Below are positions 26,779-30,043 of a DNA stretch of 32,394 bases, in pieces. Under the pieces are notes generated by a model that was not told where the DNA came from, ran no database searches, and worked only from the letters and a program-made list of their open reading frames with translations. Source of the DNA: Clostridia bacterium (lineage in GTDB: Bacteria > Bacillota > Peptococcia > Peptococcales > BICA1-8); assembly GCA_012720075.1 (NCBI GenBank), contig JAAXZE010000123.1:1-32394 (forward strand). The letters run 5' to 3'. Within the stretch, counting starts at the first letter, position 1; each line of letters begins with the position of its first letter. A program made the translations under genes and the position numbers.

Positions 26779-26803
26779 AAAAAAAAATCGCCTAAAGCGA
26801 TTT
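26779..26803 (-). terminator. spoIIR terminator overlapping the stop codon
   Basis: Minus strand AAATCGC (26803-26797) pairs with GCGATTT (26791-26785) around a 5-base loop that contains the spoIIR TAG, then nine T. A translating ribosome would cover this stem, so termination may depend on ribosome release. Confidence 0.8.
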
Positions 26804-27421
26804 AGAAAAACTCCAAACTCCACGAAGCAAGGAAAAATATTCTCTTGAAAACTCTTTCAGGCTTAAATTGGTTTCCGCCCTTTCCCCCATATCTGCCATT
26901 ACGGTAATAGTATTTTCTTCTTCAACCATTCTTTTGGCCGGTTCCCGCACCCAGTCACCGTGGCAAATGGGTGGAAACAGCACACACCACCAATTTGAGC
27001 CTTTTCCTTCCCCAATAACAACTTTCAAGGCCAGGTATCTACCGGCCGGCAAAACCATATCATGGTACTTCCGGGTAGGAAAAGAATATTGGCCAAATTG
27101 GATATTAACGGAATAACTAAAACCCATCTCTTTTATTTTCCTATTTAACCTCTCCTCCAAAATTATTATGTTCTCCCAAATATATTTTTGAGCTTTTTGG
27201 GGAGAATTAATTTGTTGTAAAGGCCGCAATTCCTTTAAAACTTCATCCCTTATTATTAATTTCAGAACTTGATCTTCTTCTTTATCCGAATTTGCTATTA
27301 CATGTAACCGTACAAGATTATTCCCAAAATAATCTTGCTCACTGCCCCAAATATTGGCCGGAAAAAGTAATAAAGCAATAAAAAAGGTGATTAATGCTTT
27401 TTTCAACAATGAACCCAACAC
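26792..27421 (-). CDS. spoIIR: Stage II sporulation protein R (SpoIIR)
   Basis: Forespore-secreted signal that triggers SpoIIGA to process pro-sigma-E in the mother cell. N-terminal signal segment (ALITFFIALLLFPANIWGS), then the conserved LVRLHVIANSDKEEDQVLKL and GSNWWCVLFPPIC. About 209 residues. GTG 27421 is four bases after the sigG stop; TTG 27409, nine bases after AAGGGTG, is an equally good start. In Bacillus it is a separate sigma-F gene; here it directly follows sigG, so it is probably co-transcribed with it. Confidence 0.93.
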   Translation of the reverse strand: MLGSLLKKALITFFIALLLFPANIWGSEQDYFGNNLVRLHVIANSDKEEDQVLKLIIRDEVLKELRPLQQINSPQKAQKYIWENIIILEERLNRKIKEMGFSYSVNIQFGQYSFPTRKYHDMVLPAGRYLALKVVIGEGKGSNWWCVLFPPICHGDWVREPAKRMVEEENTITVMADMGERAETNLSLKEFSREYFSLLRGVWSFSKSL

Positions 27422-27425
27422 CCTT

Positions 27426-28199
27426 CTACATATGCTTCCTCATATGATTAAGGGCCGCTTTTTCCAAACGGCTGACTTGAGCCTGAGAAATTCCTATTTC
27501 TTCAGCAACCTCCATCTGGGTTTTTCCATCAAAAAATCTCAGAGTTAAAATCAATCGTTCTCTTTCATTTAGTTTACGTAAAGCCTCTTTTACCGCGATA
27601 CTTTCCAGCCAATTTATATCGGAATTTTTCTCGTCACCGACTTGATCCATAACAAAAATGGGATCCCCACCATCATGGTATATTGGTTCGAATAAAGATA
27701 CGGGCTCTTGGATGGCGTCAAGGGCAAATACTATTTCTTCCCTTGGTAATTTTAATTCTTCAGCAATTTCTGTGATAGTAGGCTCTTTAGAATGTTTATT
27801 GACGAGGGAATCCCGAACCTGAAGAGCTTTATAGGCAATATCCCGTAAAGAGCGGCTTACTCTTATAGGATTATTATCCCTTAGATATCTTCTTATTTCA
27901 CCTATAATCATGGGAACGGCATAGGTTGAAAACTTGACATTTTGACTTAAATCAAAATTATCTATGGCTTTCATTAAACCTATGCAACCAACCTGAAATA
28001 AATCATCAACATATTCGCCCCGGTTGGTAAATCTCTGGATAACGCTTAATACCAACCGCAAATTTCCTTGTATTAGTTGTTCTCTGGCTTCTTCGTCACC
28101 AGCCTGAAGTTTTTCAAATAACTCCCGCATTTTTGCGTTATTTAATACCGGCAACTTTGCTGTATCTACTCCACAAATTTCAACTTTATTAATTATCAA
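27426..28199 (-). CDS. sigG: RNA polymerase sigma-G factor, late forespore
   Basis: 257 residues. N-terminus NKVEICGVDTAKLPVLNN is diagnostic of sigma-G. Region 2 is FQVGCIGLMKAIDNFDLS and KFSTYAVPMIIGEIRRYL; region 4 is GKTQMEVAEEIGISQAQVSRLEKAAL. Intact to the end, unlike the neighbouring sigE. TTG start at 28199, 7 bases after GGGGGGT. It lies 168 bases after the sigE end, past the sigE terminator, so it needs its own promoter; I found no convincing one. Confidence 0.96.
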   Translation of the reverse strand: MIINKVEICGVDTAKLPVLNNAKMRELFEKLQAGDEEAREQLIQGNLRLVLSVIQRFTNRGEYVDDLFQVGCIGLMKAIDNFDLSQNVKFSTYAVPMIIGEIRRYLRDNNPIRVSRSLRDIAYKALQVRDSLVNKHSKEPTITEIAEELKLPREEIVFALDAIQEPVSLFEPIYHDGGDPIFVMDQVGDEKNSDINWLESIAVKEALRKLNERERLILTLRFFDGKTQMEVAEEIGISQAQVSRLEKAALNHMRKHM

Positions 28200-28341: not shown

Positions 28342-28368
28342 AAAAAAACTGAGCCGGGCTCAGTTTTT
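28342..28368 (-). terminator. sigE terminator
   Basis: Minus strand AAAAACTGAGC (28368-28358) pairs with GCTCAGTTTTT (28354-28344) around CCG. It starts at the original sigE TGA at 28370-28368, so the terminator remains placed for the full-length gene. Confidence 0.88.
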
Positions 28369-29102
28369 CATTCCAAACGTTGAATCTCTTTTTTTAGCCG
28401 TTTAATAATTCTTTTTTCTAAACGGGAAATATACGATTGGGATATTCCCAAGTAATCGGCAACTTCCTTCTGGGTTTTTTCCTGGCCTCCTTTTAGACCG
28501 AATCTAAGCTCCATTATCTTCTTCTACCGGGGATTTAATTTTTTCATAGCGGCATGGAGAAGTTTTTTATCTATTTCTTCTTCTAATGATTTATATATAA
28601 TATCATTGTCGGTTCCCAATACATCGGAAAGCAATAGTTCATTACCGTCCCAATCTATATTGAGGGGTTCGTCAAAACTGATTTCCGACTTGGTTTTATT
28701 GCTTCGCCTTAAATGCATGAGAATTTCATTCTCAATGCATCTTGAGGCATAAGTTGCCAGTTTTATTCGTTTAGCCGGGTCAAAAGTGTTAACGGCTTTA
28801 ATTAAACCAATGGTCCCGATGGATACTAAATCCTCAATTCCTACTCCCGTGTTCTCAAATTTCCTGGCTATGTAGACTACCAGCCTTAAATTTCTTTCGA
28901 TAAGAATACTTTTTACATTATTATCTCCCGCTTCTAACCGATCTAATAATACTCCTTCTTCATCCTGAGTCAGCGGAGGAGGCAGGGCCTCACTGCTGCC
29001 TACATAAAAAATATCCTCAGAAAGTCCTAACTTGATTAATAGCTTTACCAACACCGCTTTAAAGCTAATTTTTGTCTTAATTACCTGACCTTCCGGAAAC
29101 AA
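28368..29102 (-). pseudogene. sigE: RNA polymerase sigma-E factor gene interrupted by an in-frame TAG
   Basis: Sporulation mother-cell sigma factor. From TTG 29102 (AGGAGGTG upstream) 192 residues are read: pro-region, [52 protein letters not shown], and [21 protein letters not shown] follows at 28526-28524, after LNPR. The same frame continues for 51 clean sense codons ([34 protein letters not shown]) to TGA at 28368. Bacillus SigE has Glu at this position (NEREKQIMELRFG), so GAG to TAG explains it. The truncated product lacks region 4 and should not recognise -35 elements. With the TAG bridged the length is 244, normal. No frameshift and no other stop. Confidence 0.92.
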
Positions 29103-29119: not shown

Positions 29120-30043
29120 TTAATTTTCAGTCAACATATCAGGGTGAACTAAGGCCTGATATGTACCTTCGGAACAAAGTTTTCGGTAATAAATTCCCAA
29201 TACAACTCTTATGTTGCAGTAGGTTTTCTGCCCATCCTGAATTAGGACCTTATCGTGTTTAATTCCCAATAACATTCCATTTTGGTTACCCAAAGATGAA
29301 AAAGGTATTAATCGTATCCTGGTAATCCATTTAGGGTCCTGAAGGATGGCAATTTGCTCATCTAACGAAGGCGGTTCTTTTTTGTTGAGCATAGCTGTTA
29401 ATTGGGGAGGCAAAATGCCTGACAGTTTAGTATGTTCAATAACCATTACCGGTTCTTTTGTAATAGGGTCATTTAGCTGATTGCCGGTATCAACAAGGGC
29501 ATCGGCTTCAATAACCTGACCAAATATCTCCAGATATGCTTTCACCAGCCATGGACCTTGTTGCAAGGTGCGCCGGAAATAACTTGCTCCCCATAAGCCT
29601 AAAATTAAAGCAATTATTAATCCTACCAGCAACCAGGCAGTTTTAAAGTTTATTACATTTACTGCGATGCCGTTCCAGGTTTCCAGGATAAACAAGCTGT
29701 CATCAAAAAGATACATGGACCCTAAAACCGCCCCGCCCATGATAAAAGATACTAAATAAAAATAGGCGGCAGATTTTAAAAACCGCCCAATATTTTTAAA
29801 ACCAAAGGCAGCCCCTACCATCAGCAAAGAACAAACTACTTTTGCCGGGAAAGTAGCGGTAAAGGAAAATTGAGGCAGAAAAATAAGCACGGCATAAGAG
29901 GCGACTATTAAAGCACCCAGACAAAGACCCCTTAAAGTTGTTGCAAGTTTTCCAAACTTGCTGGCCGCCCACAGTACAAAAAAGTCCATAATAAAATTGA
30001 TTAAAAAAACCATATCGATGTAGATATTTGTGTTGGGCGACAC
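29120..30043 (-). CDS. spoIIGA: Sporulation sigma-E factor processing peptidase SpoIIGA
   Basis: 307 residues: about five N-terminal membrane segments ([62 protein letters not shown]) and a cytosolic aspartic-protease domain with ALVDTGNQL (Asp185). It cleaves the pro-sequence of sigma-E after the SpoIIR signal. GTG start at 30043, 5 bases after GGGGGTG. It lies 17 bases upstream of sigE, the usual spoIIG order. The gene is intact even though its substrate gene is interrupted. Confidence 0.93.

Follow-up and report, generated by a model that had tools for sequence, protein, structure and literature searches.

An in-frame amber codon in a clostridial sigE gene, very probably a consensus error of the draft assembly

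How can a gene for the early mother-cell sigma factor of sporulation be complete over 244 codons and yet carry a stop codon inside its last domain? The window, by which we mean the whole 32,394-nucleotide stretch of DNA analysed here, is an entire contig (C79) of a draft genome of 2.64 Mb in 206 contigs that is 98.5% complete, and whose nearest relatives include the metagenome-assembled genome Clostridiaceae bacterium BRH_c20a. Its sigE could have been truncated by mutation, could be decoded in an unusual way or could be misread in the consensus; we weighed these readings against the gene itself, its sporulation neighbours and the rest of the assembly.

The sigE frame and its amber codon

The frame runs from 29102 to a terminal TGA at 28370-28368, and the TAG at 28526-28524 is its sole internal stop (Table 1). 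A six-frame translation read through the TAG matches the SigE family model TIGR02835 with 422.8 bits, rising to 425.9 bits with the TAG read as Glu, where the cut-off is 348.6; the part before the stop scores 321.4 bits on its own, below that cut-off. The preliminary description's single amber in an otherwise complete sigE is thus borne out. Membership in the family follows from the whole-protein score and from the operon, in which spoIIGA precedes sigE and sigG lies downstream, whereas an uninterrupted frame through region 4 is absent as assembled. The Pfam Sigma70_r4 match covers residues 185-238 and the TAG stands at residue 193, so the product as assembled would have 192 residues, retaining region 2 and losing nearly all of region 4. 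A profile search of the genome for a second sigE, which the preliminary description had raised as a possibility, returned none, the next best match being SigK.

Table 1. Features of the sigE locus (first six rows, positions in the window) and single in-frame stops found elsewhere in the assembly
Feature	Position	Strand	State	Match or relatives
sigE reading frame (sporulation sigma factor SigE)	28368..29102	minus	244 codons, one TAG inside	TIGR02835 422.8 bits across stop
In-frame TAG, codon 193	28524..28526	minus	just within Sigma70 region 4	Glu in 108/109 relatives
Region 4 coding remainder 3' of TAG	28371..28523	minus	normal purifying selection	
spoIIGA (pro-sigma-E processing protease)	29120..30043	minus	intact	TIGR02854 224.7 bits, cut-off 209.55
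sigG	27426..28199	minus	intact, TAG terminator	TIGR02850 508.5 bits
spoIIR	26792..27421	minus	intact, TAG terminator	TIGR02837 155 bits, cut-off 151.9
argS	L215:19633-19635		one TAA in 479-bit match	only genome copy; Tyr and intact gene in all four family relatives
pyrG	L232:1470-1472		one TAA in 861-bit match	only genome copy; Glu in relatives
nadK	L221:2711-2713		one TGA	Gly in both relatives
EF-G	L202:6095-6097		TAA in 980-bit match	Tyr in one relative and in Thermus EF-G
fliD	L240:6340-6342		TAA in 340-bit match	
GlpC-like iron-sulphur protein	L216:6298-6300		TGA at Fe-S cysteine	Cys in a relative; candidate error

Residue 193 is Glu in all but one of the 109 relatives (65 GAA, 43 GAG) and Asp in the remaining one. 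The Glu that had been proposed for this position therefore stands, but the proposed single GAG-to-TAG change is possible only, since the nearest relatives, all from the same family (L011, L012, L016/L039), have GAA.

Downstream of the stop, the coding sequence has not decayed. Its pN/pS against three relatives is 0.03-0.05, the same as among the relatives themselves, and at the 128 columns conserved in at least 95% of relatives we counted no departures, 0 of 96 before the stop and 0 of 32 after it; neither measure gave a sign of relaxed selection on sigE. The sporulation genes around it are in a similar state: spoIIGA, sigG and spoIIR, previously described as intact, all score above their NCBIfam cut-offs, and the remaining window genes that we compared with relatives are full length. 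Elsewhere in the genome sigK (on contig C132), spoIIIAE and spoIVA are intact as well; the last two are sigma-E-dependent in Bacillus subtilis. The undecayed remainder of sigE, together with these intact genes, means that the stop is very recent, or tolerated, or absent.

Clean stops in other genes of the assembly

To this choice the rest of the assembly brings the deciding evidence. We scanned about 0.71-0.73 Mb (~27% of the genome) for single stops flanked on both sides by coding sequence, and set 167 kb of homologous coding sequence beside samples from two relatives. Six further clean in-frame stops emerged, in argS, pyrG, nadK, an EF-G gene, fliD and a gene for a GlpC-like protein (Table 1). 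The fliD stop probably replaces a Glu of FliD. Our counts omit two other stops, neither with a family model shown spanning it: the TAG at L204:14086, in a HEAT-repeat-like protein, and the TAA at L235:575, in a repetitive frame. The argS and pyrG stops were both assigned to G000:C184, a contig of this genome.

Stops of the same kind as that of sigE thus occur in single-copy genes that are essential for growth, namely argS and pyrG, and also nadK; all three are core essential genes in a large transposon study in Enterobacteriaceae (PMC11481867). Without arginyl-tRNA synthetase or CTP synthase a cell is not viable, and the consensus must therefore contain false nonsense codons; what look like pseudogenes here call for confirmation in reads before they are believed.

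The frequency of such stops is also out of line with that in relatives. Homologous coding sequence holds 5 internal stops per 167 kb here (in sigE, pyrG, nadK, the EF-G gene and the GlpC-like gene), compared with 0 in ~303 kb sampled from two relatives, after overlapping frames had been removed and antisense shadows, as well as matches lying 5' of genuine starts, had been set aside by eye; the difference in rate has p = 0.006, or p = 0.016 when sigE is omitted. Scaled to the genome as a whole, this comes to ~55 stops of the kind, and with that many expected, one landing in sigE requires no special cause.

The residues replaced at the seven stops, sigE included, are Glu three times, Tyr twice, and Gly and Cys once each, with no Gln, Trp, Lys, Leu or Arg among them. 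All seven fall within the five residues from which a stop can be reached by G>T or C>A, for which P is ~0.004 under uniform substitution. A passage in PMC5994075, which cites primary work for it, gives this G-to-T and C-to-A pattern as the product of oxidised guanine in library DNA. As a cause of the errors, oxidised guanine is suggestive only, as the Tyr and Cys stops can also come about via T-to-A.

Because the argS and pyrG stops cannot be real, the sigE TAG is most readily taken as a further false stop, and we regard an artefact, judged from these like stops in the same assembly, as very probable. It would be a single-base consensus error in a fragmented draft, one that is probably metagenome-assembled and thinly covered, and the real sigE would most likely have an ordinary codon (Glu or similar) at 193 and encode a normal sigma-E. 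Some points count against this reading. Unlike argS and pyrG, sigE is dispensable for growth, and a lone stop in it may be genuine however rich in errors the assembly is; moreover, the GAA of the four nearest relatives is two changes from TAG, which requires a true codon one change away from TAG, such as GAG. The sigE stop most likely has no biological meaning, and its lesson is one of caution: when a lone nonsense codon turns up in a draft genome, the essential genes of the same assembly should be checked before a story of recoding or lineage loss is told.

Rival readings and the sporulation background

The main rival to an artefact is a real and very recent nonsense mutation, by which some or all of the sampled population would make a 192-residue SigE without region 4, would not enter the mother-cell programme and would not sporulate. 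Growth does not need sigE, neighbouring lineages have lost sporulation (G006, G008, G009 and G013, all of the same order, are without sigE, spo0A, spoIIIAE and spoIVA), and the genus offers no other genome for comparison, all of which leaves room for such an event. Set against it are the unbroken conservation at the 128 columns and the low pN/pS past the stop, the intact state of the other sporulation genes tested, and the presence in the assembly of stops that cannot be real; we consider it unlikely. An asporogenous lineage, one of the four options that the preliminary description had listed, is unsupported, as every sigma-E-dependent gene that we tested is intact and sigE is free of relaxed selection; sequencing error, another of them, is the best supported, and general recoding is refuted.

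Far less probable is a stop that is real and tolerated, either by readthrough or by a restart at the in-frame ATG at 28512-28514, 9 bases 3' of the TAG, with region 4 made as a separate chain and the two pieces forming a sigma factor like SigO-RsoA. The region 3' of the TAG is indeed kept as protein, but the ATG encodes a Met common to most relatives and so speaks of no adaptation to a split. Searches bearing on decoding were likewise unfavourable: the best match to PylS in a profile search of the genome reached 23.9 bits against a cut-off of 178.15, and the 44 tRNAs found, an incomplete set in which Ala and Ile tRNAs were missing, included none with an anticodon for any stop codon, CUA included, so that neither the pylS nor the amber suppressor tRNA envisaged in the preliminary description came to light. 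Folding of the RNA past the stop is no more stable than in shuffled controls (z = -0.72), an Rfam search gave no match, and nearby genes terminate normally at TAG. Were the stop real and tolerated, it would amount to a new way of controlling sporulation; that sigma-E is made as two chains or by programmed readthrough, with entry into the mother-cell programme tied to a translational event, is in our estimate more doubtful still.

A general reassignment of TAG to an amino acid, by pyrrolysine or a suppressor tRNA, has one in-frame TAG in a conserved gene to its credit and is vanishingly improbable, indeed refuted unless a pyl cassette lies in unassembled sequence, as had been argued from the window: PylS is below its cut-off, no stop-reading tRNA is among those found, the other interrupted genes of the assembly carry TAA or TGA, and TAG is a normal terminator, closing nine other window genes, as stated earlier, and 53 of 201 long coding frames, about a quarter, in a sample of the genome. 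Even taken jointly, functional recoding and a split sigma factor are very improbable.

Several observations on sporulation genes in this genome and its relatives deserve mention in their own right. We did not find spo0A or spoIVB in the window's genome (G000:C3:4-1527, G000:C169), where recN is broken by a contig end right before their expected place; this is probably a gap rather than a loss, with the genes possibly in unassembled sequence, and because the contig ends exactly there we reject the absence of the two genes as proof that the line is asporogenous. An orphan copy of the final 20 spo0A codons (TNSEFIAMVADKLRLTYKVS) is present on the minus strand upstream of steA (L177:6533-6592, that is, G000:C169:20532-20591), adjoining a gene whose product has a bacterial Ig-like (Big_2) domain, and this tail has the look of an attachment site for a prophage, or for another element, inserted at the spo0A 3' end. 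BRH_c20a has, besides an intact spo0A, a second and orphan spo0A tail of 32 matched residues (G004, contig C48, minus strand, L231:924-1019), close to transposase-like frames and others of element-like character; in this family, elements may repeatedly use the spo0A 3' end as their target.

The sigK gene is uninterrupted in the window's genome. In several relatives it matches in two pieces, either separated by tens of kilobases or situated at contig ends (G007:C22:361722-405475, G003:C14/C24, G004:C29/C65, G037:C1), as expected for skin-like elements. In BRH_c20a, sigE and sigG, adjacent in the window, are separated by ~10 kb (L165/L166, G004:C19:72153-83550), which is an insertion of something. 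In G006, G008, G009 and G013, sigK is missing together with sigE, spo0A, spoIIIAE and spoIVA, which suggests wholesale loss of sporulation in these lineages.

Relation to known systems

Pyrrolysine-decoding bacteria resemble the present case in having an in-frame TAG in a conserved gene; here, by contrast, PylS falls below its cut-off, no CUA tRNA was found among the tRNAs recovered, and sigE is not a methylamine methyltransferase. SigO-RsoA of Bacillus subtilis is a two-subunit sigma factor whose core-binding and -35-binding parts are on two chains, and a split sigE would divide the same parts; sigE differs in lacking both a separate gene for the second part and any mark of adaptation, and it can be explained more simply. 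Nonsense and frameshift artefacts of draft and metagenome-assembled genomes offer another parallel: in one fragmented assembly, conserved genes, essential ones included, are each interrupted by a clean stop, and such stops are absent from the relatives' samples; here the stops checked are of the substitution type only. The gene itself belongs with SigE (sigma-E; TIGR02835 / NF006158), the early mother-cell sporulation sigma factor: it matches the family in full, with spoIIGA upstream, sigG downstream and all conserved columns kept, and departs from it by one in-frame TAG at codon 193.
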